Shown in pieces: positions 1,341 to 26,700 of a stretch of DNA of 64,000 bases. A model generated the notes under the pieces. It was given only the letters and a program-made list of their open reading frames with translations. It was not told the origin of the DNA and searched no databases. The position numbers were made by a program, and so were the translations under genes. The stretch's first letter is position 1. The number at the start of each line of letters is the position of its first letter. The stretch comes from Eucommia ulmoides (lineage: Eukaryota; Streptophyta; Magnoliopsida; Garryales; Eucommiaceae), in the NCBI GenBank assembly GCA_016647705.1, contig JAENRU010000497.1, positions 1 through 64,000 on the forward strand, given 5' to 3'.

Positions 1341-2182
1341 CATCGTCAAATCAAATACAACATCATCGAATCACAACCCAATAAATATCGTCTACTCAAC
1401 ATCGTCAAATCACCACGTCTATCTCTTTTTCTCAAAACCAACTTTTAAATCCAAAAATCATATTTCACACTTTCTTTTAAAGAAAACGTCTCATTTTATC
1501 AAAACCACTTTTCCACCCTTTATTTTCAGAAAACCAGGCATTTTTAGAAAAATAGATGTTTTCTATTCTCTTTTTTTTTTTAAAAAAAAAAAAAAAACAC
1601 CATCTAATTTCACCCAATCCAACAAAAATTCATTTTCAACTTCTTTTTGAAAACTATCGAAATCTTCCGAAAATCCAGTTTACCCACTCACTCCAATCCT
1701 GTTTGATCCATATCATTTATAAATTCATACAGTTTAAATAATTACCTCTTTCATCATATATATTTATAGAAAAATAGTTTGGTAAGAAGACAGTACACTC
1801 ACCTGAATATCCGTTTCCAAAAGTTCCATCGATTCTCTGCTACTGATCCTCTGGAAATCGGGAACCTATTCGTGACAAGGCCTAAATTAATATTTTATGT
1901 AAAAATAACCTAACCATTAAATATAGGCCCTAATTTTCGTAATTTCCTATTCCCCACATTCTATATCACTATTTAATGAGTAGGGTTCCGTTACCGTTTA
2001 CGGTATCGAATTCATTCACGCGAATGGTCTCAATATTTAATATTTCAATCACTTAAGAGACAATTTAAACACAATCAAATGCATATATTAAAAGTGATAG
2101 GAATTTTACCTCTTCCAACTTTTCCGTCGGTCGCAAAAATTAGATTTTTAATTTTTGTTGGGGTGGTTTGTGGAATTTTCCC

Positions 2183-2216
<34 letters not shown>

Positions 2217-2792
2217 CTTCCTGTTTCTTCTTCGTTTTTCTGGTCTACGCCCACTTCTCTGAGCCTCTCTCTCTCTTCCGCCGGCCTGCACCGCCGGCGA
2301 CGGCCACTATTTTCTTTTCTTTTTTCTTTTTCTTCTTCTGTTTTTCGTCTATGCTCCTGGTTCAGCCACCAATACCTCCACCGGCCCTCACTACCGGCGA
2401 CCCACACCTCTCTCTCTTCCTCTGTTTCTGCTTCTGCTTCAAATCAGCCGAGCGAGGCCGACACGCCACACACACGACCGCCTACTTAAATCGAATGGAA
2501 TACATACCCCCAACCCATCAATGATAATGGCGAACGGCACTTCCCAAACTACAGCTATCGACCCCTCCTCCGACCAACCTCCTTCTTTCTCTCTCTACCC
2601 TCCATTCCGGCGATGACGGCAACCACCATGCACACACAAACACACACTGATCACATACATACACATCACCGTTCTCGTACCTACAACGAACACACACACA
2701 TACCCACACACAGCGGTGCACACCCACCCACCCACTTGGTCATCGGACGGACGCACAGCTCACCGCCGGCAGCTTCCCTTCTCTCTCTTCGG

Positions 2793-2793
<1 letters not shown>

Positions 2794-2844
<51 letters not shown>
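2794..2844. repeat. Poly(T) run of about 51 bases
   Basis: Uninterrupted thymine run inside the LTR. It explains the apparent Phe- or Lys-rich ORFs on both strands here, which are not genes. Confidence 0.95.
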
Positions 2845-2965
2845 CTGGACGATTCTTTCCAATTTTCCTATCATTTATATGCATGGATCTAGTGGATCGA
2901 TCATGCTTCCTCTTCAAGCCACGTCGCCACTCTTTCTGCCGGCCAGCTGATCGTCATTGTTGTTT

Positions 2966-2968
<3 letters not shown>

Positions 2969-3003
<35 letters not shown>
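2969..3003. repeat. (TA)n microsatellite
   Basis: Uninterrupted AT dinucleotide run of about 35 bases near the right end of the LTR. Confidence 0.95.
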
Positions 3004-3008
<5 letters not shown>

Positions 3009-3781
3009 ACTACTTCTGGTTAATTTCTCTTTCCTCCCCCCCTAATTTCTATAATTCTCTTTTTTTAGTTCAATTTGTCATTTATGAGTTTCTTAAATTA
3101 TGATTCCACCCAAAAGTTTTAATTCGAAAGTCAAATGCCAATTTTGGCTTGAATGTTTTCTACATCTGCAAATTGACCCCTAAATGTTTGGTTTGAATTT
3201 TAATTAATCTAATTTCTCTCCGAATTTTCACATTCTTTAGAATGCAATTATAAATGACGTACTTACTAAGTCGGGGTCTTACATTTGGTGCTTCGCGATA
3301 CACGGCACCGTGCATCCAGAATACATATATTTGAATGTTACATTCCACACACACCATTCGAATGTTGAATGTAACACCCACACAACTTCATATCAACTCG
3401 ACCAAAAATCACAAATAGTACATCAAATTAACGCTGATTTTTTTATGATTAATATGATGTAAAAAGTTTATTTTTTGAACACAAAAAAAATCACAAAACA
3501 ACCAAGTTTCATGTTATTTTGATGTCCAACAGTCAATGCCCAGGTTTTGTGGAATGCAATTCTTGAACATTAACTACAGCTCCAGTAAAAGAAACAAAGA
3601 ATGCCTAATCTGGACACTTGCAGGGGCAGGATGGTCACGAAAAAACACAAAGGACCTAACAGTGCAAAAAAAAAAAAAAAAAAACTTGGGGTTTGATTGG
3701 TACATGTAATTGTGAAAAGGGACCTATTGGTGTGCGCCCCTATTTTTAATCGAATGGTCCCAGTGTTCCATTCAAAATATT

Positions 3782-3820
3782 AACGGCACATCGCCATTTC
3801 AGAAACGGCGATGTGTCGTT
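3782..3820. repeat. Hairpin in MULE copy 1
   Basis: The arms at 3782-3799 and 3803-3820 pair over 18 positions with one mismatch and one G.T pair, around a 3-base loop (CAG). It sits ~185 bp upstream of the splice donor, the position occupied by the hairpin array in the other MULE copy. Confidence 0.8.
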
Positions 3821-4382
3821 TGCCGAATCTTTCTCATTTCCATATCCCTGCTCCTTTCTCCATTTATACTGAGGAGAGTTTTGTTCATCCTAATTTTTTT
3901 TTTTTTTCCGTTTTAATCAGAGTGTTCATCATTTATTTTGCCGATTTTCTTCATCAAAATTTAACAAATATTACAACTTCACAACTCCTTCCCCCTATTA
4001 CAAAGGTAAGTTTTTTTATTTTATTTTTTGTTTAATTTATTTGTTAGTTTGATTAGTATGTTTTTTACTTATTATTTGTTAGTTTGATTAATTTACATAT
4101 TTGTTAGTTTGATTGGTTACTTATTTTTTACACATTATAATGTACTATTTGAAAAAAGGTTAGTTAGTTAATTAATTAGTTTAGTTGTTAATTTAGTTGT
4201 TTTAAAACATTAAAAAAACATTAGAGGATAGTTTAATTTTAATTTGTTATTTATTTAATTTGTTAGTTAGTTAGTTTGTTTTGTTAGTTAGTTTACTTGT
4301 TTTAGCTAGTTAATTTAATTTGTTGGTTTAATTATTTAATTTGTTAGTTAGTTGGTTAGTTTAATTTGTTAATTTAGTTGTT

Positions 4383-6010
4383 AAATTAAAAATTACACTT
4401 TGGCCCCTTTCACAAGTGTAGGAAAATATAAATTAATATATTATTTAAAAAAAATTAGTTAGTTAATTTAATTTTTGAATTTAGCTATTTAATTAAAAAA
4501 ATATTCAATTAAAAATATGCACTTTGACCCCTGAAAGTTTGACAATTACAAAAATATAAATTTTTAATATATTTTAAAATAAATTGTTAGTTAGTTTAAT
4601 TTTTGAATTTAGTTAAAATTGTTAATTAGTTAGTTTAATTTATGAATTTAGTTATTTAATTAAAAAAATATTTGTTTAATTTATTAATTTAGTTGTTAAA
4701 TTAAAATTACACTTTGGCCCCCTTTCACATGTGTAGGAAAATATAAATTAATATATTATTTTTTTTAAAAAATTAGTTAGTTAATTTAATTTTTGAATTT
4801 AGCTATTTAATTAAAAAAATGCACTTTGGCCCTTGAAAGTTTGACGATTAGAAAAATATAAATTTTTAATATATTATTTTAAAATAAATTGTTAGTTAGT
4901 TTAATTTTTAAATTTAGTTAAAATTGTTAATTAGTTAGTTTAATTTATGAATCTAGTTATTTAATTAAAAAATATTTGTTTAATTTGTTAATTTAGTTGT
5001 TAACTAAAAATTACACTTTGGCCCCTTTCACATGTGTAGGAAAATATAAATTAATATATTATTTAAAAAAACAAATTTAGTTAGTTAGTTTAATTTTTGA
5101 ATTTAGCTATTTAATTAAAAAATGTTTAATTAAAAAATATGCACTTTGGCCCTTGAAAGTTTGACAATTAGAAAAATATAAATTTTTAATATATTGTTTT
5201 AAAATAAATTGTTAGTTAGTTTAATTTTTAAATTTAGTTAAAATTGTTAATTAGTTAGTTTAATTTATGTATTTAGTTATTTAATTAAAAAATATTTGCT
5301 TAATTTATTAATTTAGTTGTTAAATTAAAAATTACACTTTGGCATTTTCACATGTATAGGAAAATATAAATTAATATATTATTTAAAAAAATTGTTTGTT
5401 AGTTAGTTTAATTTTTGAATTTAGCTATTTGATTAAAAAAATGTTTAATTAAAAAATATGCACTTTGGCCCCTGAAAGTTTGACAATTAGAAAAATATAA
5501 ATTTTTAATATATTATTTTAAAATAAATTGTTAGTTAGTTTAATTTTTGAATTTAGTTAAAATTGTTAATTAGTTAGTTTAATTTATGGATTTAGTTATT
5601 TAATTAAAAATTATTTAATTAAATTTGTGCACTTTGACCCCTCAAAATTTTGCAAATTGGAAAAATATAAATTAAAATATATTGGTTTAAAATAAATTGT
5701 AAGTTAATTTGAGTTTAATTTTTTAATTTAGTTGTTTAACTGTCGATTAGTGATGAAGTTGAAACACCTGCATTGGCTACGTATTTGTAACAAAACTTTG
5801 GCCCCCCTAAAGTATGACAATTAGAGAAATAAAAATTTTAATATATTGTTTTAAAATAAATTGTTAGTTAGATTATTTTTGAATTTAGTTAAAATTGTCA
5901 ATTAATTAGTATAATTTTTGACCCATCTAAGTTTGACAAATTGAAAAAATATAAATTAAAACTTGTTAGTTAGTTCAATTTTTTAATTTACTTGTTTAAT
6001 TAAAAAATGT
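4383..6010. repeat. AT-rich tandem array, units about 304-321 bp (MULE copy 1 intron)
   Basis: The marker ACACTTTGGC recurs at 4395, 4709, 5013 and 5334, giving spacings of 314, 304 and 321. Each unit also contains a second CACTTTGGCCC(T/C)TGAAAG half and TTAGTTAGTTTAATTT tracts. The array decays toward 6010. Flanked by a splice donor at 4006 and a conserved tail, it is best read as intron filler. Confidence 0.85.
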
Positions 6011-6610
6011 GTAATTACAGATTGTGCACTTTCATCCCTCAAATTAATTGAATCTATTGAGTTGATATTAACATGACGTGGAATTTATATTTGATTTAGA
6101 GTTAAAGTTAAAATAATTATTGAATAAATTAAAATAAGTAAAATATTAAGGATTGAAAATAAATCACTCAAACCCATAAAAAATGAACACTACAAACATT
6201 GGTATATGAACATAGTTTTGTGATTAAGTATTCCCCCGTCTTACACTCGAGAGAGGTGGCGAGGGAGTTTACGAACTGAGATTGTCGGATAGGATGAGCG
6301 TCATTAATAAAAATAGATTGAAATGAACATGTTTAAGTGAACGATATTAATCCCTAGGCAATAATTCTCATAAACGTCCTACCAATATATTAGTATTATT
6401 AGATAAATTAGTATTGTAGTATTAGTATTTATTAATTAAATACCATTTTTATCGCCTAGATAAAGTCGAGTTATGATAATCGCGGTATTCGACGATATTC
6501 TCAACTAATCCTTGTGAACACGATACCCCTACTCTCCCAACCTATACTAAAACTTAACCCGTACGCTTGCGGTGAAAGTGGCGACGCTAAATTAGTGGCC
6601 ACCAAGTTTT

Positions 6611-9298: not shown

Positions 9299-9592
9299 TG
9301 ATAGGTGTAAATTACCTATCTATTTCCAAACCGAACTTGTTAGTTTTCGAGTATGTTTAGTATGTTTTATTACATTTTAATTCGTTTATATTCTTTTTTC
9401 CATAAAACAGGTATTTGGGGTGAAAAGGGACTAAAACGGTCCTTATGCAGTCAAATCGGATCAAGAACGGTGGAAAAAATGTAGAAAAACAAGCAAGGAG
9501 GTAAGATTATGAAAACAGCAGCCCACCGCCTAGGCGTCCAGACCACTGCCTAGGCGGTGAAAATGCAGAGAAGACAAATTCTTGCTGAACAC

Positions 9593-9610
9593 TCACCGCC
9601 TAGGCGGTGA
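9593..9610. repeat. Perfect 18-bp palindrome (CTAG centre) in LTR
   Basis: TCACCGCCTAGGCGGTGA is fully self-complementary. Imperfect copies are next to it at 9526 and 9547, and it lies ~150 bp upstream of the LTR TATA box. Confidence 0.95.
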
Positions 9611-9676
9611 AATGGCAGAATGTTTTCCAATTCCAGTGCCTTCTCCACCGCTGCGGCGATCTCTGAATCGACATAC

Positions 9677-9694
9677 TCACCACCTAGGTGGTGA
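9677..9694. repeat. Perfect 18-bp palindrome variant in LTR
   Basis: TCACCACCTAGGTGGTGA differs from the palindrome at 9593 by one base in each arm, and the two changes are complementary, so symmetry is kept. Confidence 0.95.
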
Positions 9695-10712
9695 ATCTCA
9701 CCGCGTAGGCGGTCACTCTACGGATAGTTTAGGATATTTTGAGATATTTTTGAGCTTATATATATCCTCCATTTGCTTCCAAATAGAGGGTTAGACGTTT
9801 TGGGAACTCTTTAGAGCTCCGGGGCCATTCGACTAAGGGAAGATCACGTTGTGAAGAAGGAGGAAACGTTCTCGAAATGATTTTAGCATCGGATCTTCGG
9901 ATAAATGGCTAGTTTCTTCGTTTCTCTCTTTCTCTCTTAGATTTAGTTGAATGTTTGTATATGTTTAGCTCGTTTCTAGTTGTATATAGGGCTACGAACA
10001 TGTTTAGCTAAACATATATTGTCTAGGGCTTGATTGAATTCATGAAAACGTTGTTTATATAAAATCGATGTTTTGTTAGTGGTTGTTCATGTTTATCTGA
10101 TTGTGTTTGTCATGTTGTATTGTTTATTATGCTTGTTATGATATACCGAGAATACGGGGTTTGACACTCAGGAGAGGTAACCCCGGATTTGAACTAGGGT
10201 AAACATAACGCAACGATCCAATAACACAGGAAGGAGTTGGAAAGTGTGCAATCAACGACGTTGGGGTGAGACTCACATGACCTAGAGTCATTAAGACGTT
10301 GAGGGGGACTTCGACGTTGACACGAAGTCACGTATTCCCCCGTCTTACATTCGAGATAGGTGACGAGTGAGTTTACGAACTGAGATTGTCAGATAGGTAA
10401 GTGCCATTAATAAAAATAGATTGAAACAAACACTTTTAAGTGAACGATATTAATCCCTAGACAATAATTCTCATAAACGTCCTACCAATATATTAGTATA
10501 ATTAGACAAATTAGTATTGTAGTATTAGTATTTATTAATTAAATACCATTTTTATCGCCTAGATAAAGTCGAGTTATGATAATCGCAGTACTCGACGATA
10601 TTCTCAACCAATTCCCGTGAACACGATACCCCTACTCTCCCAACCTATACTAAAACTTGACCCGTACGCTTACAGTGAAAGTGGAGACGCTAAATTAGCA
10701 GCCACCAATTTG

Positions 10713-11302: not shown

Positions 11303-12582
11303 ACCTATATAGATAAAATGTTAAGTGTCACGTATGATATACTAAATGGATGCTTAATATAAATAGGAAAAAAAAATACCAAATAGTCTACTTAAAATTC
11401 TAAAACTACAAGATAGCCCCATTATTTTTTCTTTGCACCAAATAGTCATTCAAAAAATACTGGTTTGCACAAGATAGTCCTAAATATTTTGAATTAACAA
11501 TTTTTCCCTCATTTGACCTCTTTCTTTTTCCCTTTGATGTCTCGTCTTTGTTGTTGCTCTTTAGATTTTACTGTTTGGGGTTTGGCAACAGAGCACGCCG
11601 GTGCCTCGGTGTTTTGTTGGCAGTGGTGATTGATTGTTCATTGGTGATTTTGTTGGTTTCGTTTCGTTTCCTCACCGGTTGTGGGGTTCGTTGTGGCTCA
11701 AAGTTTTCTACTCGTTCATGGAAGATCGCAGACGTAACCGTGATAATCGATTGAAATCGTCGCTTGAATTCCATTTGTTGGATCGTGTTTTGAATAATCA
11801 GGACCGTCGGATCTACAATCGTAAAGTCAAACACCACCAAAGGCTCGTTGCAGAAGAAATCAAAAAACAACCACATCGCCATCAAGGCCACGAACACAAT
11901 CATCGGAATCGAGTGATATCATCGGAGGCCGAGGAACAGAATCAGTCCTCCATTCTCACCACTAAGTGCCGATTGCTCGTCGTCTTCAATCGATCGGTAA
12001 CTCTCAGTCATCTTTGATCGATCGATCAATCATCGTCGTTAATTGTTGAATCACCATTGTGATTCCTTGTTCTTCCTCACAGCAAATGGCATTATGCCTT
12101 TTCAAGAGAATCCCATGCATTTCCAAAAATTGCACTTTGCTCCTTAGGATTTATTTGGTTGGATTGATTTGGTTTGTATTTTGAAAAAATCAAGCATATG
12201 AAGGTAGAGAGAGAATTATTAATTTGGATGAAAAATTATAATGTAACACGATGGCGGTGGCCCCAAACTCGTTTCCCTAAACAAATATGTGTGTGTGTGT
12301 AAGAGAGAGAGAAGGAATTTGATCTACGCACCTGGTGGAGTGGAGTTTATGTTAGGTATATTGTATGATTGTTTTAGTGAGATGAAATAAGTACGGCAAC
12401 TTGGTAAAATTTGAACAACGGTGAAAGTGAGATCGTGTTGAATAATCATTTTGAATATTACACGATTTTGCATTATATTAACGCAATCCCATGTTATATT
12501 CAATACGAAGGGTAAAATATATTTGGTAATATTATCTTTGTACCTGAATTTTTTGGTAACTGTGACATATAAATAATATTAG
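11303..12582. other. Unassigned stretch
   Basis: AT-rich flanks around a more balanced segment (11540-12070). That segment is open on both strands: + strand 11634-12017, 127 codons, rich in His, Arg and Asn; - strand 11568-11903, 111 codons. I recognise neither. Repeats of the phrase ACCAAATAGTC/AGATAGTCC are seen at 11378-11490, and ATCGATCGATCAATCATCG near 12020. It could be a captured gene piece or a decayed element end. No gene is called. Confidence 0.3.
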
Positions 12583-12785
12583 CTAAATGATACAAATGGG
12601 TTTTACTCATCCCTTTCTCTGACCTAAGAACAGGGAAAAAAATTATACTACCTAAATGAAACAAATGGGTTTTAGTCATCCCTTTCTCTACCTAACAAAA
12701 GGAAAAAAAAAAATTATACTACCTAAATGATACAAATGGGTTTTAGTCATCCCTTTCTCTACCTAACAAAAGGGAAAAAATGGGT
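12583..12785. repeat. Tandem repeat, three units of about 70 bp
   Basis: CTAAATGATACAAATGGGTT starts at 12583, 12652 (one change) and 12723. Units are 69 and 71 bp and contain a (T)AGTCATCCCTTTCTCTACC block. High identity suggests recent duplication. It lies just upstream of the MULE hairpin array. Confidence 0.9.
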
Positions 12786-12917
12786 TGAGCGGGTCATTGC
12801 AAGCTGTTCATTTTTTTATTTTCTTAAGTAGTTTTGGAGTTGTTTACCTATTAAATATTAAAAATAAAAAAAATTACTGAATGAGAATAGTTTTTAACTT
12901 ATTTACGTGAATAATGC

Positions 12918-13261
12918 ATTTCGCCCTTGTGAAGGGCGAAATCGAAATTTTATTTTATTTTATTTTTTTTTGATCCCGCGCTTGTGAACAGCGGGATCAA
13001 AAAAAATTAATTTAATTTGATCCCGCCCTTGCGAAGGGCGGGATCAATAATTTATTTTTTTTTTTTTATTTGATCCCGCCCTTCACAAGGGCAGGATCAA
13101 ATGGATTTTTTTTTTTTTTTTAAAAATGTGATCCCGCCCTTATGAAGGGCGGGATCACCAAACGGCGACCAGCCGTTTACACGGCTGGTCGCCGTTTGCT
13201 TTGGCCGGTCAAACGACCGGCCAAAGCTGCAGAGAAGGCAGCCTAAAAAGGCTGCCTTCTC
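12918..13261. repeat. Array of eight consecutive hairpins
   Basis: H1 12918-12942 (11-bp perfect arms, loop GTG). H2 12964-13006 (20-bp arms with 2 mismatches, GTG). H3 13017-13047 (14-bp perfect, GCG). H4 13068-13102 (16-bp, 1 mismatch, CAC). H5 13128-13158 (14-bp perfect, ATG). H6 13159-13198 (18-bp perfect, TTAC). H7 13198-13227 (13-bp perfect, AAAC). H8 13232-13261 (13-bp perfect, AAAA). H2-H5 share the arm GATCCCGCCCTT and H1 has TTTCGCCCTT; H6-H8 have unrelated arms. T/A tracts separate H1-H5. The array ends ~115 bp upstream of the TATA box. Confidence 0.95.
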
Positions 13262-13375
13262 CCCCTTTTTTTTTTTTCGCAGGCTATTTTTTGTTTTTTT
13301 ATAGGTATAGGTATAGGTATAGGTTTAGCTTTAATTTGAAATTTTAAAATCTCGATATATGTGCACAATTTCGCC

Positions 13376-13382
13376 TATAAAT
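13376..13382 (+). promoter_or_regulatory. TATA box of the MULE transcription unit
   Basis: TATAAAT in the context CGCCTATAAATATCAC. It is followed by a pyrimidine-rich leader (13400-13510) without ATG codons and a splice donor CAG|GTTAGT at 13511. A TATA box at this spot upstream of a non-coding first exon fits a plant promoter. Confidence 0.6.
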
Positions 13383-13510
13383 ATCACTTACCGGATTTCA
13401 TTAAAATTCACATTTCTTCATTTACTCCTTCTCTCATTTGTTCTTCATTTTGATATTTTTTTGTTCTAGTTACACTTCTTCTATTCAGACTTCTACTCCT
13501 CTATTCACAG

Positions 13511-16268
13511 GTTAGTATATTTTTAACATTTTTTTAATTTATTTGTTAATTTAATTAGTATATTTTTTATCTTTATTTGTTAGTTAGTTGGTTAGTTTAA
13601 TTTGTTAATTTAATTGTTGAATTAAAAATTATACTTTGGTCATTTTTACATGTTTAAGAAAATATAAAATAATATATTATTTTAAAAAAAATGTTAGTTA
13701 GTTAGTTTAATTTTTTACTCTAGCTATTTAATTAAAAAAATATACACTTTGACCCCTAAAAGTATAACAACTAGAAAAATATAAATTTTTAATATATTAT
13801 TTTAAAATAAATTATTAGTTAGTTTGTTTGTTTTGTTAATTTAATTTGTTTAATTAGTTGGTTAGTTTAATTTGTTAATTTAGTTGTTAAATTAAAAATT
13901 ACACTTTGTCTCCTTTCACATGTGTAGAAAAATATACACTTTGGCCCCTAAAATTTTTTCAATTACAAAAATATAAAATTTTCAACCTAACGTTTTAAAA
14001 TAAATTGTTAGTTAGTTTCATTTTTGAATTTTGTTATTTAATTTAAAATGTATTTATTTAATTTGTTAATTTAGTTGTTAAATTAAAAATTACACTTTCG
14101 CCCCATGTGTACGAAAATATAAATCAACATATTACATTTTTAGTTAGTTTAATTTTCTAATTTAGCTATTTAATTAAAAATACACTTTGGCCACTGAAAT
14201 TTTGATAATTAGAAAAATATAAAATTAAAATACCTATTATTTTGTTTAATTTGTTAATTTAGTTGTTAAATTAAAAATTACACTTTCGCCCCGTTCACAT
14301 GTGTAGGAAAATATAAATCAACATATTACATTTTTAGTTAGTTTAATTTTGTAATTTAGCTATTTAATTAAAAATATACACTTTGGCCCCTTAAATTTTG
14401 ATAATTAGAAAAATATAAAATTAAAATACCTATTATTTGTTTAATTTAGTTGTTAAATTAAAAATTACACTTTGTCTCCTTTCACATGTGTAGAAAAATA
14501 TACACTTTGGCCCCTGAAATTTTTTCAATTACAAAAATATAAAATTTTCAACCTAACGTTTTAAAATAAATTGTTAGTTAGTTTCATTTTTGAATTTTGT
14601 TATTTAATTTAAAATGTATTTATTTAATTTGTTAATTTAGTTGTTAAATTAAAAATTACACTTTCGCCCCATGTGTACGAAAATATAAATCAACATATTA
14701 CATTTTTAGTTAGTTTAATTTTCTAATTTAGCTATTTAATTAAAAATACACTTTGGCCACTGAAATTTTGATAATTAGAAAAATATAAAATTAAAATACC
14801 TATTATTTTGTTTAATTTGTTAATTTAGTTGTTAAATTAAAAATTACACTTTCGCCCCGTTCACATGTGTAGGAAAATATAAATCAACATATTACATTTT
14901 TAGTTAGTTTAATTTTGTAATTTAGCTATTTAATTAAAAATATACACTTTGGCCCCTTAAATTTTGATAATTAGAAAAATATAAAATTAAAATACCTATT
15001 ATTTGTTTAATTTAGTTGTTAAATTAAAAATTACACTTTGTCTCCTTTCACATGTGTAGAAAAATATACACTTTGGCCCCTGAAATTTTTTCAATTACAA
15101 AAATATAAAATTTTCAACCTAACGTTTTAAAATAAATTGTTAGTTAGTTTCATTTTTGAATTTTGTTATTTAATTTAAAATGTATTTATTTAATTTGTTA
15201 ATTTAGTTGTTAAATTAAAAATTACACTTTCGCCCCATGTGTACGAAAATATAAATCAACATATTACATTTTTAGTTAGTTTAATTTTCTAATTTAGCTA
15301 TTTAATTAAAAATACACTTTGGCCCCTGAAATTTTGATAATTAGAAAAATATAAAATTAAAATACCTATTATTTTGTTTAATTTGTTAATTTAGTTGTTA
15401 AATTAAAAATTACACTTTCGCCCCGTTCACATGTATAGGAAAATATAAATCAACATATTACATTTTTAGTTAGTTTAATTTTCTAATTTAGCTATTTAAT
15501 TAAAAATATACACTTTGGCCCCTTAAATTTTGATAATTAGAAAAATATAAAATTAAAATACCTATTATTTGTTTAATTTAGTTGTTAAATTAAAAATTAC
15601 ACTTTCGCCCCTTTCACATGTGTACGAAAATATACACTTTGGCCCTTGAAATTTTTTCAATTACAAAAATATTAAATATCAACCTATTGTTTTAAAATAA
15701 ATTGTTAGTTAGTTTCATTTTTTAATTTCGTTATTTAATTTAAAATGTATTTATTTAATTTGTTAATTTAGTTGTTAAATTAAAAATTACACTTTCGCCC
15801 CTTTCACATGTGTACGAAAATATACACTTTGGCTCTTGAAATTTTTTCAATTAGAAAAATATTAAATATTCAACCTATTGTTTTAAAATAAATTGTTAGT
15901 TAGTTTCATTTTTTAATTTCGTTATTTAATTTAAAATGTATTTATTTAATTTGTTAATTTAGTTATTAAATTAAAAATTACACTTTCGCCTCTTTCACAT
16001 TGGAATATGATGTACAAATTGTGCACTTTCATTCCTCAAATTAATTGAATCTATTTAGTTGATATTAGCTTGACGTGGAATTTATATTCGATTTAGAGTT
16101 AAAGTTAAAATAATTATTGAATAAATTCAAAATAAGTAAAATATTAAGGATTGAAAATAAATTACTCTAACCCATAAAAAATGAACACTATAAACCAACA
16201 TACTTTTGTGATTGAGTTTTAGTTAACGATATTTTTTTCTTGTTTTGTTTTGCCTTGTCAAATGATAG
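13511..16268 (+). other. Large 5' intron of the MULE transposase transcript (inferred)
   Basis: The donor CAG|GTTAGT follows a pyrimidine-rich leader. The candidate acceptor is TGATAG| at 16267-16268, after a T-rich tract and 9 bp before the transposase ATG. The 2.7 kb between is ~75-80% A+T and almost entirely tandem repeat, with no coding. MULE copy 1 has a matching donor (4006) and the same tail, which supports the intron reading. The exact acceptor is uncertain. Confidence 0.55.
13901..15982. repeat. Higher-order AT-rich repeat, period 566 bp
   Basis: The marker ACACTTTGTC occurs at 13901, 14467 and 15033, and its variant ACACTTTCGC at 15599: three intervals of exactly 566 bp. Each 566-bp unit contains three ~187-191-bp subunits (starts at 13901, 14092, 14280, then 14467). 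The first three units look almost identical, pointing to recent expansion. From 15599 only the ~190-bp subunit period continues, to about 15980. Confidence 0.95.
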
Positions 16269-16277
16269 CCGCTTGAA

Positions 16278-19078
16278 ATGGATCACGTTCGATTGTTATT
16301 GTATTGGGGTGGTAGAATATTGGAAGGTACGGAGTTCGGGGTTTGTTATAGTACATCAATTGTAAAATCTTTGGTTGTCCGTAGGGGAACAAGCTTAAAT
16401 GAATTAATTGAGACGCTAAAACCATGTGTTCTTGAAGATGGGGTTACTGGAATTTTGAAACTAAAGTGTAGGATGCCGATGGCTCTTTTCGGGTCGAACT
16501 ATAAATATACCTTGTTTTCTATCGAGGATGACTCAGCATTAAACCAAGTGCTTGAGTTACCTCTTTATATACCCTCCCTTCTTGCTGTTGAAGTATATGT
16601 AGAGATAGAACGGGCATTTGATGATGGTCCAAATTTTTTTCCCCCAAGTGGTCATTTTACCAACTTAATGACCCAGAGTTTAAATCCGTACAGTACCCAA
16701 TCTGACGGACAATTTTTCGGCACCGTTCCCCAAGCAGTCCAATCTAATTACACCATCCCACCCCCTTACAGTCTAGAACAATATCATTCCCACAATACTC
16801 CTATGCTGCACCTCCAATTACTTGAGTCTAATTACACCGTCCCACTCCCCTATATTCCAGAGCAAGATCATTCTCATAGTATGATTGACCGTGGTCATGG
16901 CACCAGCTCTGCTCTTCCACATCCCCATTATTCACCGAGTAGTCCGCCGCAAGATAACATAAGTAATTATGGTGGTGACTTTGATACAATTGATAGTCGC
17001 GACGATGTGTCAGAAGAAGAGTTCGATGCGGATTTAGCGTTTCAGCCAGACGAAGATGTAGATACTGGGCCTAGCGGGCAAGGGGGTGAAAATCAGCAAT
17101 TGGAGTTAGACAATGTAATTTCATTTTTCAATAACTTGGAATGGGGTGACGACGATGACTTGGCGAAATACGAGCCGAAGTTGCGGAAGAATTTTTGGAC
17201 ACCGGAGATGGACGAATTCCGTACTGGTATGGTCTTTAAGGACAAGGAACATCTCCAGCAGGCCGTCAAATTTTACCACTTGAAAAAGAACAAAGAGTTT
17301 TATGTCTCGCAAACGAACAAGAAGCTCTGGTCGATTAATTGTTCGCATGGATGCGATTGGAGGTTGCGGGCGGGGAGGAAAAAAAGTCACGGTATGTTTG
17401 AGATTACACAGTATGAGGGGCAACACACATGTTTCTATAATCATACTGCTGTAGATCATAAAAATTTGGATTCTGCACTCATTTCGAACCTAATACTTGG
17501 ACAAGTAGAACAGGATCCAGAATTGAAGATTGGCGTCATTGTGGCTTACGTGAAGGAGGCTCATGGATACACTATCTCCTATAGAAAAGCTTGGTTGGCT
17601 AGATCTAAAGCCATTGAGACCTTGTTCGGAGATTGGGATGAATCATACCGGAAGTTACCGAAATTTATGGTCGCGTTGCAGCACTACAATGCAGGTACGA
17701 TTGTCGAGTGGCGCACTGTGTCGACTGATATGCCTGACTATAGGATGTTCGACATGGTATTTTGGGCATTCAAAGCTTCAGTCGACGGATGGCGTTATTG
17801 TCGCCCTGTAATCACCATTGACGGGACCCATTTGTATGGTAAATATGATGGAAAGATTTTAATCGCCATAGGAATGACGTCGTCCAACAAGTGCTACCCA
17901 TTGGCTTTTGCAGTCGTACCGACGGAGGATTACCGATGTTGGCGCTGGTTCATCTACATGCTTAAGCGTCATATTGTCGGTGATCGTCCTGAGGTTACAT
18001 TGATATCTGATAGACACGCCGGCATTATTAGTGCAGTTGACAATATTTGGCTTAATCAACATAACGAGCCCCTCCGATATCATCGATTTTGTTTGCGGCA
18101 CCTTTGTAGCAATTTCAATAAGATTGCTAAAAATCAGCATCTCAAAGATCTTGCTTGGAATGCAGGTGCTGCAACACAAATTCGAAAATACGATGCTATC
18201 ATGGAAGAGATCAAAAAGATTGATGTTCAGGCGCATGCATGGTTGAGCAATCATGCACCTTACAAATGGACCAGGGCACACGACAATGGTAAGCGTTGGG
18301 GAGTCATGACGACCAATTATGCAGAGGTATTTAACAATTGTTTAAAGGGTGCAAGAAATGTTCCAATAACTGCAGCCGTCAAGATTACGTTCTACAGGAT
18401 GGTTAAATACTTTGATATTGGTCGACAACAAGCTTTAAAGGACTCAGCTGACGGTTACGTATATGCTAAACACGTCGTTGATAAAATACAGAAATCTCAA
18501 GCCAAGTCTAAAACATACGAGATTCAAATATTCAATCGGTAATTTAGTATTCATTATTATTTTTTCACGTTACATATAATTGTTACGACATAATTTAACA
18601 ACTAAATATTTTTTTTTCTAGAGAGAATATGATCTTCCATGTGAAAACTAGGAAGACCCTTTCTGGGGGCTTGATTCCTCATGAAGTCACACTAGGAGAT
18701 AACCCTGATTGCACATGTGGGAAGTTTAAAATTTGGCGATATCCGTGCTCCCATATGCTTGCGGCCACGGAGTATAGTGGAGTTAATGCATTCCGCTATA
18801 TTGCTGCTGAGTATACAATGACAAACCAATTGATGGCATGGGAGTCTTCGTTTAGGCCGATTCTTCATGAGGACTACTGGCCAGAGACCAATTTTCCGAA
18901 CCTCATTCCAGACCATGATAGACTTCGAGTTGTGCATCGTGGTCGACCCAATTCCACTCGCATTCAAAACGAGATGGATCAGTCGCGCAGAACAATGACA
19001 AATCGTTGCGGTTTATGTTCCCAAACTGGACATGATAGGCGAAAATGTCCATCCCGACCCCGCCATACACCCAATTGA
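16278..19078 (+). CDS. MULE transposase (MudrA-like), two exons
   Basis: Exons 16278-18538 and 18622-19078, joined by a GT...AG intron of 83 bp that keeps the frame; 905 aa. The start is the ATG right after the inferred intron acceptor. Domains: an N-terminal ubiquitin-like/PB1-like region (about 1-110); an acidic, proline- and histidine-rich linker (~120-290); a Mutator DNA-binding zinc domain (~305-400: FYHLKKNKEF, CSHGCDW, GQHTC); and a MULE DDE domain with TIDGTHL (D515), LISDRHAG (D578) and NYAEVFN (E683) as likely catalytic residues. After the intron come a SWIM zinc finger (CTCGKF...YPCSHM) and a CCHC knuckle (CGLCSQTGHDRRKC). It would bind the element's ends in the nucleus and cut and rejoin DNA. 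All key residues seem present, so it may be active. Confidence 0.92.
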
Positions 19079-19250
19079 TCTTATCGGTTTATTGTAATGA
19101 ATGTTTATGCTATTGTTTTTTGTTATGTCAACTGTTATGTATTATAAATTCTATGCACTTGTTGCGCATATTGCCTTTATAATGAATCTTATATTTTGTT
19201 TATAAATATGATTAAATTTTAATTTCGTACTAAAATTAAAAGGATTGAAA
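19079..19250 (+). promoter_or_regulatory. Spacer with possible TATA box before small ORF A
   Basis: AT-rich spacer. TATAAATA at 19201-19208 lies 43 bp upstream of the ATG at 19251. It could be a separate promoter, or chance in AT-rich DNA. Confidence 0.25.
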
Positions 19251-19685
19251 ATGTACACGGTGAGAGATTTGTATCGTTCAATGGGACGTAACTGGCTTTT
19301 GGAAGACGAATTCTCATACTCTTTAGATCCAAGAGTTCGTTACTCTTCACGGTCGGTTGCAAGGATGCGGGAGGAATACACTTATCGTGTCAACCAATCA
19401 GAGGTTATGGTGGACGGATGCAGGCAATATAATATTCCAATAGTGCATCAATTGGCCAGAACAATGCCAACAGATACGCCGCATAATCTTCAAATGGCGT
19501 TGCATCGCTACCGTGAAGAAAATAACCGAATGCAAATTCGAATTTTTCGACATGAGCTTAAAACGACGGCACGTGAGCGTCTTGAACAAGGTTTGTTCGC
19601 CGAATCGCGTACTTACATGAGACATGCAAAGAGTCCTCAATATCAGTCAGATATTGAAATGTCTGATGATGAGAGTAATGTTTAA
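19251..19685 (+). CDS. MULE accessory protein A (unrecognised)
   Basis: 144 aa from the ATG at 19251. No family recognised. Contains a basic/aromatic N-terminus (YRSMGRNWLLEDEF), then REEYTYRVNQS (~40-50), a HRYREENNRM helix-like region (~86-94), a basic segment, and a Ser/Asp/Glu-rich C-terminal tail (EMSDDESNV). It is related to the next ORF: both share (R/Q)E(Y/W)xYRVN(Q/E)S, a proline-histidine segment, ENNRM and an SPxxY before the acidic tail. It sits in the same orientation downstream of the transposase, where MULEs often carry a second gene (mudrB in maize, VANB/VANC in VANDAL elements). Function unknown; an accessory or anti-silencing role is a guess. A clean reading frame and paralogy argue that it is a real gene. 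Confidence 0.7.
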   Translation: MYTVRDLYRSMGRNWLLEDEFSYSLDPRVRYSSRSVARMREEYTYRVNQSEVMVDGCRQYNIPIVHQLARTMPTDTPHNLQMALHRYREENNRMQIRIFRHELKTTARERLEQGLFAESRTYMRHAKSPQYQSDIEMSDDESNV

Positions 19686-19972
19686 TGAAGTAACGTTGGT
19701 GAATTGTAGTTTAATTATGTATTTCCTTTGAAATCTAATGTATCATTTCTACGTTAAATTATAATAACGTTACTTCTCCCAAACAACTGACTTTTTCTCT
19801 TTCAATTGATAGGTGATGTTGGGTTAGTTTTTTTTTTAATTTAAGGCTCGTATACATAAGTTATAAAACATAATTTTTCATTAATTATCTTTTTAAAAAA
19901 CTAATTTTTTTGTGAACTCTTAATTTGCAGTATAATATTTGTAAAGAAACTGTTCAGCCTATTATTTTCGTA

Positions 19973-20479
19973 ATGTCTTCACATATTAATTCAAGTGAAG
20001 AAAGTTCATATGGTTTTTCAAGTGAGGAGAACTCATATGGTGTTTGGGGTTGGCATGGACTGTGGGATCACCAAAGATGTTGGGTTTTAAAACCATATTA
20101 TGATGATTACTGGAGTGATCAAGAGACCAACCCGATAGAGTATCGCATCGGTCTACGCCAAGAATGGGAATACAGGGTGAATGAGTCTAACAACCTTGTA
20201 TTTTGTTTGAGAAATCTTAATGCACCAGTTCCGCATCGTCGAAGTCTTCAGATGCCTCGACGATGTATAATTGATGACACAACCGAGATTGAAGATGCTA
20301 TTACACGAATTCGCCTGGAGAATAATCGAATGTTGTTGCGCAGAAATAGATATTATCTACTACAACTAGCCAATGAAATGGCTGCCGCAAGCAACAGAGC
20401 ACTCTCTCCAAACGAATACCATAACGTGATAAATAACAATGAATATTTGTCTGAGGGGTATATGTCGAATGAAGAATAA
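19973..20479 (+). CDS. MULE accessory protein B, paralogue of A (unrecognised)
   Basis: 168 aa from the ATG at 19973; the frame is open further upstream, without an ATG, to a splice-acceptor-like TTTGCAG at 19924-19930, so an upstream exon is possible. The N-terminus is Ser/Glu-rich with two SSYG/NSYG repeats and a Trp-rich patch (GVWGWHGLWDHQRCW). Then comes LRQEWEYRVNES, a PVPHRR segment, RIRLENNRM, a helix with paired aromatics, SPNEY and an acidic tail (MSNEE). The shared order of motifs with protein A shows tandem duplication of an ancestral ORF, followed by divergence. No known domain is recognised. Confidence 0.65.
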   Translation: MSSHINSSEESSYGFSSEENSYGVWGWHGLWDHQRCWVLKPYYDDYWSDQETNPIEYRIGLRQEWEYRVNESNNLVFCLRNLNAPVPHRRSLQMPRRCIIDDTTEIEDAITRIRLENNRMLLRRNRYYLLQLANEMAAASNRALSPNEYHNVINNNEYLSEGYMSNEE

Positions 20480-20917
20480 TTAATTTTTTGCTCTGGTATT
20501 TTATTTTGGAGTGTTTTTATTGTCACTATTTTTATGATATTATGTACTGTATTTCTTATATACTGTCTTTGTTATGAGTTTTGTAACAAATATCGTTAAA
20601 TTTGTTTTCGTCTATGTAATATTTTTTTAATATAATATTTATGATTATTTTAACTTTAATCGCCTTTAATATTATACCGTTACGAGTTGTTTTGCCTATT
20701 TAAGAATCTTTCCGGAATGTTAGACACATTGCTCGATCTCTCATTCAAATTCTGTATCTATTTGCGAAGCAATATATACGGTACATCAACAACTTTCTAA
20801 ATCTCCAGACGTTACAAAAAAATGTATTTACTAACTACATAAATTACTATATAACTATATATTTACAAAAAAAATGTATTTACATTTCTATAACTAAACT
20901 ATCAACTACATAACTAA
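20480..20917. other. Convergent intergenic spacer
   Basis: AT-rich spacer between the 3' ends of accessory gene B (+) and the PMD gene (-). It should hold both polyadenylation regions. Nothing else is seen. Confidence 0.5.
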
Positions 20918-22635
20918 TTATGTACCGCAAGGCCTCCGACGGACGTTCCTCCGCCCTCGTCGTTGTGCAACAGGAGGTTCCTCAGCCTCCTCATGAACTT
21001 GTGTAACTTGTCCGAAGTTCGTGAACGCCTGATGCATACTCCCCGGGATAGCATCGACGTCGTCCTCGAACCACGGCACCGGCGACACTTGTCTTTGCAA
21101 TCTTGTGGGTTCGGCAAATGCCACCGGAGGAATGACGCCTGAAGTTGAAATAAATTCATCCATCTCCGGAGTGACGAATGACGATGACGGGTGTGTACCT
21201 AGCTGCGATGCGTAATGCGAATAAGGGTCATGCATCTGGTACACGTTGGATGGCCCAGCATCGTCACCCATGCCGTACGAACTAGATGATACGGCATGAG
21301 CGCCCATGCCGTACGTACTAGATGATCCGGCATAAGCGCCCATGCCGTACGATGTAGAAGGTTCGGCATCGCCCACACTACCTGGACGATAGGCATCAGA
21401 AGTCCATGGCTGAGGAGAAGGCTGAGGAGCAGCCTGAGGAGATGAAGGAACGTCAGCTGCCACATGGCGTGGTACTCCTCGATACATCCTCCCAATGGTG
21501 CCATCATTGATGGCATGAGCCAGCTCGATACCCGATTCTGCAGTACCGGACCGTAGGGTTAGATCACTCAAGCGTATCAAGTTTGATACCTCCGTATCCT
21601 ACGAAACACATAAATTGGTTTAATTAATACATGAATAATAACAACATAATCTAACTCATATAACTAAACAGATGGTACAGTCAATGTGATCATACATCTA
21701 ATCCCAGTCGTCCTCCTATTGGTAGATACCCAAATTGAGGTTGGTACGCCGGGTTGACCAAAAATCTTCGTGTGATTCGCCAATACCAATCTATGTATTC
21801 TTGGTCAACCCCTATCCCTTGCTCAAAATTGGCGACATCTGGTGCTTGCCGATTATTCCACGCAACTATATGTGCATGGTGATGGTCAGCCCAGTTTGCA
21901 CGGAAGTATCCTCGCCGAGTAATTTTGTGCAAGTTCCTGTCCCACATTACCGGTTCAGGAACCCCTTGGCGATAACCAAACTGTCGTAGCACGCGGAGGG
22001 GATACGTGTACTCGACAATCTCATAGCATATTAGGGGCAACTTTGCCATCCAAATATCTTCTTCATCTTTAGTATATGGAGGCAAAGTCGGCAAGGTATA
22101 GGGCATCCAAATGACCTGTAAAATAAAATATAAACAAACAAATAAAAAAATTAAAATTTCGATATAAGTAAATAAATAACCTCGTCATTCTTCAAGCGAT
22201 CTAACTGATCGCGATACACCACCAAAATATGCATCGGCAAATTATCCAAATTAAATTGAAGAGTCCACCTGTACACCAAAAATATAAATCATAAGTTTAA
22301 TATCCATAAATAAATATCTATTACATGATAAATGAAATTAAAAATAAAATACTAATTACTTACCAATAACCCCTCGGAGCAGCTGGGAACTTCAAGTCGC
22401 CGCCGTAGTCGAGCTCTCCGAATGATATATTATAGTTGGGGAGAGGGACTACTTCAGGCCGAAGCCTTGGAAATCGCTCCCAAGCCCAACACTCCAACAA
22501 AAATAGGCACCCGGCAATGTGTTTCGTGTTGGGCTTCGTCGCCTTACAGAGCTCGCGGTAGAGGATCGCTAGGGTCGCACTGCCCCAGCTATACTTGACG
22601 AAAGGTGTCAAGTCACGCAGCAGCAGGATGTCACC
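20918..22635 (-). CDS. Plant mobile domain (PMD) protein gene, 5'-truncated
   Basis: Minus strand, four exons with GT...AG introns that keep frame: ~22635-22364, 22268-22181, 22115-21696 and 21598-20918. The encoded protein has PMD-C (aminotransferase-like/MAIN-like) hallmarks: YSWGSATLAILYRELC, GCLFLLECWAWERFP, VVYRDQLDRL, ICYEIVEY, RVLRQFGYRQ, DWYWRITRRF. The C-terminal exon is low-complexity with three 12-aa YGMG(A/D)xA repeats and ends in a basic RRGRRNVRRRPCGT tail. Arabidopsis MAIN and MAIL1 share this domain and act in silencing and genome stability; PMDs also travel in MULEs and Ty3/gypsy elements. The N-terminal part is missing: upstream of ~22635 the sequence changes to an LTR fragment. 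It lies convergent to the transposase, so it was probably driven from the element's right end. Confidence 0.8.
21258..21362 (-). repeat. Three 36-bp repeats inside the PMD C-terminal exon
   Basis: Three in-frame units encode YGMGAYAGSSST, YGMGAHAVSSSS and YGMGDDAGPSNV. On the + strand they appear as CCCATGCCGTACG every ~36-42 bp. Confidence 0.8.
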
Positions 22636-23089: not shown

Positions 23090-23262
23090 ATTCCATTAGG
23101 TTGGAATCCCATTCCACCCCATCTCAAATGGAATCCCATTCCATCCAATTTCATTCCAATGGAATCACAAAAGTGATTCTATTGGAGAACCAAACAACGG
23201 AATAGGAATCGAGGGCGGAATGCGATTCTATTCCGCCCTCGATTCCATCCAACCAAACATGC
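23090..23262. mobile_element. Possible small MITE with ATTCC-rich inverted repeats
   Basis: Dense in GGAATGGAATCC/GGATTCCATTCC motifs. It includes a 17-bp perfect inverted repeat (23205-23221 with 23230-23246, 8-base loop) and ends CCAACCAAACATGCC, a phrase common at the ends of plant MITEs that mimic their target. Termini and TSD are not resolved. Confidence 0.35.
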
Positions 23263-23709: not shown

Positions 23710-26700
23710 TTTACAGTGGGCGTTTGTTACGCGCTCACATATTGACTACTAGAAATTGTATGAGGTCTGATGGCCGCTAATTAAGCGCTTCGACTTTCAC
23801 CACAAGCGTACAGATCAAGTTTTAGTATAGTGGACCTTTCGGTCAGGTATCGTATCCACAGGAATTGGTGTCATTACTATCGAATATCGCGATTGTCATA
23901 ACCTGACATTATCTAGGCGACAAAAATGGAATATAATTAATTAATACTAATACTAATATAGCCTAATTTAACTATACCATACTAATATTAATATGGGATA
24001 GTTTTGAGAGAATAGGTTGTCTATGAATTAGTTTCGTTTACGAATACGTGTTCAGTCTCGCTTTAGTTTATGTTAACAATGTTTAACTTATATGACAATC
24101 GCAGTTCGTAAACTCATCCGCCACCTTTTCCGAGTATAAGACGGGAGAAAACGCGACTTAGTGTCAACGAAGAAGTCACCCTCAACGTCTTAACGACCCT
24201 AGGCCACGTGAGTCTCGCCCCAACGTCATTGATTGCACACAATCCAACTCTCTCCCAGGTTATTGGATCATCTCGTTGTATTTATCCTAACGACAATCTC
24301 CGTTCTAAAACTCCCTCGCCACCTCTCCCGAGTGTAAGATGAGGGAATACGTGACTTCGCATCAATGCCGAAGTCCCCTCAACGTCTTAACGACTCTAGG
24401 TCACATGAGTCCTGCCCCAACGTCATCAATTGTCCACAATCAAAACCCCGATTGGGTTGTAGGATTGTGGCATTCGTTTATTCTAGTCCGAATTTGGGAT
24501 TTGTCAAACCCTGTATTCTTGATATGTAAACCTAAGTAATATAAACAAATAATATGGCACACACAATCAACATAACGAAGAACAATCGCAAACAAAACAC
24601 AAACTCAATTAAACAACGTTTTCATAAATTATATTAATAATCCCTATACATCCTATGTTTAGCTAATGGCCATAACCACGTATACAATGTAAAATGGCGT
24701 AAACATACTCAACAACTACCAAAATATAGAAAATAAAGAGAAGAAATGAGCGATTTAGACAATATCCGAAGAATAGCCGCTAGAATCGTCCACTGATCGC
24801 TTCCCTCTTCATCCTCCACCTCTGGTTGAGAGCTCTCCCTCAAAAATCCCTAAACCTAACCCTAAAATATGGCCTAAGGCCTTAGGAGCTGAATAAAAAT
24901 GGAAAGAGAGGAGGAGAGAAGGGTACAAATAGGCCAAAAAATATCTAAAACATATCTCACTGTACAGAGGTTTTCGCGTAGGCGAAGTTAGGTCGATTAA
25001 CTTTCTGCCGGATTTCCGCCTAGGCGGTGGAATTTTTCGCCTAGGCGAAGAAATTGCAGGTTTGCATTTTTTTTACTGTAACTTGTTCATCCGAATTTCG
25101 ATTAAGGTGATTCAAAAGCCTATGGAAAGATAAGAAAAATATATACAACTTCCATGTTTTAAGTATTTCTAAAATAGGATTTCATCGTAGTCAAAAATAG
25201 CCTTGAAATTACAACACCTGTATCGACTTTGCAGGTTTGGTGACCGCCTAGGCAAAGAAGTAGGCGGTGGAATTGGAAATGTTCTCAGCATATTCACAGC
25301 CTAGGTGGAGGTCTAGATGCTTAGGAGGTGGGCTTTTTTCACAATGTTGCCTCCTTGCTCATTTATCCACCGTAATTTCGTCCGCTTTGGTTCGATCACA
25401 TCGTTTTCGCTCCGATTTCATACCTTCTCATCCCACGCACCTGTTTTAATACAAAAAAAATAAAAACATATTAAAACACATAAAAATAATTATAAACATA
25501 CTCGAAAACTAACAAAACTGGTTTGGAAATACGTAAGTGTTTTACACCTATCAAGGTCAAAGTTTTAGTACAGTGTGATCATTAAGATCAGGCATCATAT
25601 CCACAGAGATGGGTGTTCGTTATTATCAAGTACCGTGTTTATCATAACCTAACTTTATATAGGTTAAAAACATGTGTATTTAATTAATTAAACTAAACCA
25701 ATTAACTAAATTATCTATACTAATATAATGAGATGTTTTAGGGGAAAGAATTGTCTAGGGATTAACTCGGTTTACAAATACGTGTTTGATCTTGATTGAC
25801 TTAAGTTTACGGTGTTCAACCGATTTGACAATCTCAATTCGTAAACTCTCCTGCCACCTCTCCCGATTGTAAGACGAGGGATATAACGCGACTTCGTGTT
25901 AATGAAAAAGTCCCCCTTAATGTCTTAACGACCCTAGGTCACGTGAGTCTCGCCCCAACATCATTGATTGCACACAATCCAACTCTCGACTAGGTTATTG
26001 TATTGTCGTGTTGTGTTTACCCTATCGACAATCTTAGTTCCAAAACTCCACCGCCACCTTTCTCAAGTGTAAGACAGGGGAATACATGACTTCGAGTCAA
26101 CGAAGAAGTCCCCCCTAAATGTCTTAACGACCCTAGGTCATGTGAGTCTTGCCCCAACGTCATCGATTGGCGTTATGTTTACTTTAGTCCAAATCCGAGG
26201 TTACTTGTCCCGAGTGTCAAACCCGGTATTCTCTGAATATCATTCTAAGCATAATAAATATAACAATACGATAAACACAATCAAACTATGAAGAACAAAC
26301 ATAAATGCAACACTGAAATCATACGAATCACATATTTATAAATATATTGTTAATCCCTATACAATCCATGTTTAACTAATGGACATAACTGTATTTACAA
26401 TAAAGCACAAGCTAAACATGCTCACAAAATCCTAAGTTAAATAAATAAGGGAATAAATCAAAGAACTTAGCCTTGTCCGAAGTTTAGCCGCTAAGAACGT
26501 TCAACGATCGCTTCGCCGTCTTCCTCCACCTCAGGATGTGAGCTTCCCCTCTAAAGCTTTTCTACCTACCCATAGATATATTCTAAGGGGCTCAAAATGG
26601 CCTGAGAGAGGAAAAGGAATGGAGAGAGGAGGGATTTCAATAAGCAAAATATCTAAAAAGAAAAATATCTAATCTATTCAGAGGCCACCGCCACAGCGGT

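Follow-up and report, generated by a model that had tools for sequence, protein, structure and literature searches.

Plant Mutator-like elements (MULEs) produce target duplications of 9–11 bp, and MuDR carries convergent genes, promoters in its terminal inverted repeats (TIRs) and a conserved motif of ~32 bp bound by MURA (PMC3310237). In Aedes aegypti, short subterminal repeats are present in 10 of 12 long-TIR MULE families, and Muta1 has been termed a type-2 Foldback element (PMC5225508). Arrays in MULE ends are therefore already known from Muta1, from other mosquito MULE families and from the repeats targeted by VANC. Here, we describe an array of eight DNA hairpins from Eucommia ulmoides, located in a window of 64,000 bases (positions 1–64000 of the 85,980-base contig JAENRU010000497.1) and followed through the whole genome (946,670,599 bases, 947 Mb). 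This array is an internal portion of the TIR of family A, a young group of MULEs in which it recurs as a regular module: each end has it, with the terminus on its outer side and a TATA-like box on its inner side.

The array covers 344 bp (12918–13261) and consists of eight GC-rich stem-loops, H1 to H8, all located where the original prediction had placed them. The corresponding features are listed below, the hairpins without strand.

12837–12864, + strand: outer terminus of the family-A MULE, GAGTTGTTTACCTATTAAATATTAAAAA
12918–12942: H1, perfect hairpin with a ATTTCGCCCTT arm and a 3-nt loop, centred 94 bp inside the terminus
12972–12998: H2, GAT-type hairpin, degenerate, 3 mismatches relative to the pattern
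13017–13047: H3, perfect GATCCCGCCCTT hairpin
13068–13102: H4, GATCCCGCCCTT hairpin with one mismatch
13128–13158: H5, perfect GATCCCGCCCTT hairpin
13159–13198: H6, CAAACGGCGACCAGCCGT hairpin, perfect arms of 18 bp
13198–13227: H7, GCTTTGGCCGGTC hairpin, loop AAAC in the window
13232–13261: H8, GAGAAGGCAGCCT hairpin
13374–13383, + strand: TATA-like box, CCTATAAATA, inside the TIR, with a putative promoter role

Pairing is perfect in six of the eight hairpins (H1, H3, H5, H6, H7 and H8), with arms of 11–18 bp. The six perfect stems had been announced as lying in a row, but they are not strictly consecutive because H2 and H4 carry mismatches. Likewise, four hairpins had been said to share one arm; two of them match the GATCCCGCCCTT pattern exactly, while the other two do so with 1 and 3 mismatches. 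The distance from the end of the array to the start of the TATA-like box (13374) is 113 bp, in agreement with the ~115 bp predicted, and the claim that chance cannot account for the array is borne out, a chance origin being excluded. Indeed, the array folds as DNA to -138.5 kcal/mol, whereas shuffles average -46.1 (z = -23; 0 of 100 shuffles as good), and 1000 order-1 simulations of 344 bp gave a total of one perfect GC-rich hairpin with arms of at least 11 bp, where the same count gives five in the real 344 bp, a sixth at the edge of the stretch being missed by the script. In the minimum-energy DNA fold, H1 and H5–H8 form separate hairpins and H3 pairs with H4. A scan of the whole window for perfect GC-rich hairpins of this arm length returned seven, six of them in the array; the seventh (23211–23240, GAGGGCGGAATGCGATTCTATTCCGCCCTC) lies ~0.6 kb beyond the position where the element breaks off. 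Repeated CCGCCTAGGCGG-like palindromes are also seen outside the MULE, at 9519–9700 and 25013–25055.

The 27-bp hairpin GATCCCGCCCTT-N3-AAGGGCGGGATC has 434 exact places in the genome (0 for the reversed control), and those listed, from contigs C1 and C2 and the start of C3, fall into 28 clusters, 22 of which make up 11 pairs ~1.5–15 kb apart. The terminus is present at all 25 of these 28 clusters that were inspected, departing from the pattern at 3 and 4 of 26 bases in two of them, so that every inspected cluster sits at a MULE end; the terminus itself occurs at 217 places with ≤2 mismatches (control, 0). Among the matches listed, inverted repeats of ~0.4–3.6 kb stand at both ends of the family copies. 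They start outside the hairpins at GAGTTGTTTACCTATTAAATATTAAAAA and span the hairpins and the TATA-like box, the long ones also including the leader and the intron repeats. The array is thus found at both ends of the element, including the one opposite the transposase, and is kept in derivatives of 1.16, 2.0, 2.4 and 4.2 kb devoid of an intact transposase gene. The shortest complete element, of 1157 bp and with the duplication ATCGATTGAG, holds little beyond two termini with their arrays and leaders. Because the occurrence at the inspected clusters is two-ended and bounded by duplications, we reject both a free satellite and a promoter-only role. Neither a general satellite nor matches unlinked to MULEs came to light among the inspected clusters, and the attribution of the array to a MULE, also supported by the mudrA-like transposase domains of the window copy, is upheld. 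The expectation that the hairpins would lie 5' of MULE transposases is right as to the tie with MULE ends but too narrow, since they also occupy the opposite end and transposase-less derivatives; likewise, an accessory of the transposase promoter does not fit an array that is inside the TIR and not specific to the promoter.

Family A was mobile in the past and is young. Thirty-two elements were checked, 11 reached via the hairpins (E1–E11) and 21 via the terminal 28-mer. Their 10-bp target duplication is perfect in 25, carries one mismatch in four (E1, E8, E10 and L061/L062); the other three (E3, L045/L046 and L053/L054) have it in degenerate or shifted form or lack it. Furthermore, the transposase exon is 97.5–99.7% identical to that of the window over 754 residues in E1, E5, E10 and E11; matches are shorter in E4 (581 residues) and E9 (42), and among the family copies compared, E3, E6 and E7 gave no match to it. 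From 15997 to 22631, the window copy agrees with E1 and E10 at 98.7–98.8%.

Conservation and pairing were examined in 61 termini, namely the left terminus of the window copy and the two termini of each of nine elements and of the 21 elements reached via the terminal 28-mer. The conservation values were taken from the 42 termini picked by the terminal 28-mer alone, out of at least 100 listed; bases 1–28 served as bait and hence stand outside the conservation judgement, and the AT spacers align poorly. The GAT hairpin is found with ≤2 mismatches in 61 of 61 termini, as one copy in 7, two in 28 and three in 26. Mean pairwise mismatch per site in the arms amounts to 0.031 (H1), 0.109 (H2), 0.032 (H3), 0.030 (H4), 0.033 (H5), 0.061 (H6), 0.054 (H7) and 0.130 (H8), and elsewhere to 0.323 in the loops, 0.152 in bases 29–80, 0.083 in the AT spacers, 0.231 between H8 and the TATA-like box, 0.024 in that box and 0.052 in the leader. 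Most arms, though not all, are therefore conserved, together with the TATA-like box and the leader.

Pairing was scored over H1, H5, H6 and H7, extracted with ≤8 substitutions for H1, H6 and H7 and ≤7 for H5 (the H1 extracted from terminus L061_l is probably a different hairpin). Of 3200 cells, 3074 are paired, 126 are broken and 3 show two-sided changes with pairing kept, and covariation within family A is accordingly rejected as a proof of structure. The outer pair of H8 is A-T in 35 of the 61 termini, G-C in 14, and other or unread in 12. Among the arm substitutions, 86 of 141 are C>T or G>A. Inserted copies decay and are not repaired, and the comparison inside family A is no proof that selection acts on structure. 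CpG depletion, sought as a mark of old methylated copies, was not found (observed/expected 1.0–1.3). The broken pairs display no strand bias (43 G.T and 48 A.C), which bears on the proposal that a transcript crossing the array serves as a hairpin RNA or a source of small RNAs. A strong potential fold speaks for such a role, but the TATA-like box stands downstream of the array and Rfam gave no match at gathering scores. We therefore reject selection at the RNA level, and the small-RNA source that had been suggested finds no support and appears highly improbable.

The loops behave differently from the arms. That of H7 reads AAAC in 32 of the 61 termini and its exact reverse complement, GTTT, in 25, with at least eight changes on a quick tree of the downstream DNA, and the GTG/CAC loops of H1 and H5 changed at least three times each on this tree; these counts come from a quick tree and may include gene conversion. 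Loop inversions of this kind need a hairpin or a template switch, or else spread by gene conversion, and they form a record of such events in a plant nuclear genome. They also speak for palindromes that are a functionless mutational by-product of template switching during repair, as do the plentiful tandem repeats elsewhere in the TIR. Against this, the good arms differ 2.5–5 times less than bases 29–80 and 4–8 times less than the stretch between H8 and the TATA-like box, homogenisation from arm to arm is hardly present (3 versus 126), and the array has a similar position in three families, described below, so that we regard a by-product as improbable.

A further alternative concerns the spacers. 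A GC-rich stem with a T-run behind it, as read on the inward strand, could stop RNA polymerases arriving from the flank and so shield the element promoter. The inward-strand T content of the spacers after H1, H3 and H4 is indeed 83, 78 and 66%, and a T- and C-rich stretch follows H8. The spacer after H2, however, is 69% A, there are no spacers between H5, H6 and H7, and termination at a hairpin and T-run is a bacterial mechanism, which makes a read-in barrier more improbable still.

Two related families, B and C, allowed the array to be compared beyond family A. The window itself contains a piece of the former.

3744–6180, + strand: family-B fragment with one remaining family-B hairpin (3782–3820), a leader related to that of family A and AT-rich intron repeats; right limit set by eye

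Its terminus was not found within 2000–4200. Twenty-five further family-B places were read over ~0.6–0.9 kb each; the array was not seen at two of them (L079 and L092), and others are decayed. The family-B terminus, GAGTTCTTTACCTAATAA, is related to that of family A, and the repeated hairpin, GGTCCCGGTGTT-N3-AACACCGGGACC, has 46 exact places in the genome (control, 0). Its arm differs from the family-A arm at 4 of 12 positions, and every change is matched on the opposite arm. A family-C element adjoins the B copy L075, with the terminus GAGTTGTTTACA, hairpins of the ACCCGGGG type followed by GGGAACGGGCG and ACATGAGATGACCC hairpins, and a perfect 10-bp duplication, CTTATCTGTC. The search for its array scored 40 of 361 candidates (88 match rows), and six copies were read. 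The three families are similar in layout, with a first hairpin ~94 bp from the terminus in intact cases, then same-arm hairpins, then unrelated hairpins and the leader. Families B and C thus keep a similar layout and the dyad symmetry, while the arm letters are different and yet palindromic. That similar arrays are written with different letters in two related families suggests that the symmetry of the fold may be important to the element in its own right.

The position of the first hairpin is also similar. Its centre lies 91–97 bp from the terminus in 55 of 61 family-A termini and 94–97 bp in four of six family-C copies; of the 17 family-B copies whose terminus was recognised, nine have their best hairpin within 60–130 bp centred at 89–94. 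A spacing of ~94 bp would be close to nine helical turns (~94.5 bp). Within families, two-sided changes are rare and a single hairpin, B6, is clearly above shuffles, with 18 two-sided and 67 broken among 396 cells (shuffle mean 8.3, maximum 14; 0 of 1000 shuffles reach 18).

Taken together, these data lead us to favour, tentatively and with slightly less than even confidence, a reading based on sequence comparison in which the array is a cis-acting end module providing docking sites for the element's own proteins, its symmetry being read either as a hairpin or as a dimer site. Whether extruded as hairpins or present as sites of two-fold symmetry, the palindromes would be bound by element-coded DNA-binding proteins, candidates being the transposase or the proteins of the small open reading frames (ORFs) or of the plant mobile domain (PMD) gene presented below. 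Proteins would assemble at a set distance from the cut, with the first site at ~94 bp; the same-arm hairpins may represent the family-specific part, with a structural role for the unrelated inner ones. Copies that still move would be the target of selection, since those already inserted decay, largely through single C>T or G>A changes, and are not repaired.

A simpler version, which we consider possible though not likely, dispenses with extrusion: each arm would be the half-site of a homodimeric element protein bound to plain duplex DNA, whether the transposase, an anti-silencing factor like VANC or an activator of transcription, and both the tandem same-arm copies and their turnover from family to family would reflect co-evolution with this protein. 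It accommodates the one to three near-exact same-arm copies per family-A end, and arms conserved as sequence in family A and replaced by other arms in B and C. There are precedents as well, since the targets of VANC consist of short motifs in tandem that differ from one related element to the next (PMC5735166), and each TIR of Muta1, an active mosquito MULE, contains a 12-bp subterminal repeat in 9 copies (PMC5225508). What plain duplex sites leave unexplained is the palindromy of the unrelated inner hairpins (H6–H8 and their B and C counterparts) and the loop inversions, such as those of H7.

Several results weigh against the end module of docking sites or against a role of its fold. The near absence of covariation in family A means that the arms may be conserved there as sequence. 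Arms of H2 (0.109) and H8 (0.130) are barely better conserved than bases 29–80, the AT spacers (0.083) exceed the good arms in mismatch by a factor of only 1.4–2.8, conservation of the leader (0.052) equals that of H6 and H7, and the smallest element retains its leader besides the array. In family B, the excess of B6 resides mainly in two neighbouring pairs in one copy set, and the shuffles ignore relatedness; B7 has 7 two-sided and 33 broken among 225 cells (shuffle mean 2.8, maximum 8; 4 of 1000 reach 7), and the promoter-side hairpin 0 two-sided and 47 broken among 315 cells (shuffle mean 2.1). These counts leave out rows of other sequence (L086 and L098 of 23 for the promoter-side hairpin, L085 and L095 of 17 for B7); with those misread rows included, the two-sided counts are 5 and 10, respectively. 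As to the spacing, the family-B hairpin is centred at 107–123 in 5 of the 17 copies and was not found in 3, and no first hairpin was found near 94 in two of the six family-C copies.

Transposon ends are usually described as recognised by their sequence, and three families that share layout, spacing and palindromy with different letters represent a natural experiment on DNA structure as a recognised feature in a eukaryotic cut-and-paste element. A bolder proposal, which we consider rather unlikely, is that of a eukaryotic lineage of DDE-type transposons in which DNA hairpins serve to mark the ends. The lineage would include three or more MULE families of this plant genome, each end having an array of several GC hairpins, about eight at most, with the first at an almost constant distance from the terminus; their sequence would turn over while the fold is kept, so that the complex at each end would recognise structure, in the form of a cruciform or of hairpin DNA, besides sequence. 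Since the copies are young and short derivatives exist, the question is testable.

The window copy of family A starts at 12837 and breaks off at 22631, where its likeness to E1, E5, E6, E10 and E11 ends. Behind the TATA-like box, it carries the following features.

13511–16000, + strand: probable leader intron, donor CAG|GTTAGT, AT-rich tandem repeats, inside the TIR; splice site judged from sequence
16278–19078, + strand: mudrA-like transposase gene, with DBD_Tnp_Mut and MULE domains (16278–18539), then a SWIM exon to 19078
19212–19685 and 19916–20479, + strand: two small ORFs behind the transposase, no Pfam match
21690–22631, - strand: convergent gene with a PMD (PF10536), cut at the element break 22631

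The transposase domains score 63.1 bits for PF10551 (cut-off 27.6), 31.6 for PF03108 (25) and 29.8 for the SWIM domain PF04434 (19.6); the intron of this gene and a zinc-knuckle-like end of the SWIM exon were judged by eye. The convergent PMD gene would be driven by the right repeat. The left flank, AGTAGTTTTG, is a would-be 10-bp target duplication whose partner was not found. The right end of the copy was not found in the contig: a reverse-strand terminus was not detected within the window at ≤4 mismatches, and with four right-half queries against the whole contig, the 12 longest matches per query all correspond to the left repeat or to the family-B fragment. The two small ORFs share a motif, seen by eye, and in the family-C copy L100 a related small-ORF start stands directly behind the TIR. 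The leader introns of A (13530–16000) and B (4010–5921) are full of related tandem repeats, with units of ~170–320 bp according to Tandem Repeats Finder (TRF) and ACACTTTGGCCCC-like motifs, those of family A being inside the TIR. Elsewhere in the window, a 71-bp tandem repeat in three copies (12571–12780) ends 57 bp outside the MULE terminus, retroelement remnants occur at 53310–54047 (+ strand) and 55320–56009 (- strand) (reverse transcriptase PF00078; Pol_BBD PF22936), and a tRNA scan was empty.

The second gene of MuDR is mudrB, and VANDAL elements are not known to have long TIRs. IS200/IS605 TnpA is a prokaryotic HuH enzyme acting on single-stranded DNA, and we know of no kinship between it and MULE transposases. 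Membership of family A among the VANDAL elements is rejected, as it has long TIRs and its two small ORFs lack a Pfam match, and, in the comparison with the MuDR subgroup, its genes are convergent and the one on the minus strand matches PMD; element-coded PMD proteins have been suggested as counter-silencing factors (PMC8616336). Family A resembles MuDR/Mutator and the long-TIR plant MULEs in its MULE transposase, long TIRs, duplications in the 9–11-bp range, into which the one duplication-flanked family-C copy also falls, and convergent genes, and it differs from MuDR in having PMD as its second gene and by a hairpin array between the terminus and the TATA-like box instead of one MURA-bound motif of ~32 bp (PMC3310237). 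FARE1, MuTAnT and Tm1 are Foldback-type MULEs, the TIRs of Tm1 being composite (PMC3169594); the foldback is described as formed by the whole TIRs in MuTAnT and by ~14-bp motifs in Tm1. As regards composite TIRs built of subrepeats, the TIR of family A contains tandem repeats as well as the hairpin array, interspersed with a unique terminus, a TATA-like box and a leader. VANDAL21 and VANC offer a MULE-related element with tandem short motifs turning over between related elements, and the words 'hairpin' and 'palindrom' occur 0 times in the main text of that report (PMC5735166). With TnpA the likeness is one of working only, a transposase recognising subterminal secondary structures (PMC6006769). 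Muta1 and the other Aedes MULEs share with family A subterminal arrays inside the long TIRs of mobile MULEs; theirs, however, are 9–15-bp direct repeats with one 10-bp palindromic terminal motif, their duplications are of 8–9 bp, most families have a FLYWCH finger, and 'hairpin' is absent from the main text (PMC5225508). In the accessible parts of the open-licence literature, we found no description of discrete-hairpin arrays in MULE TIRs, and, relative to that literature, what would be new is an array of discrete hairpins whose arms differ between families.
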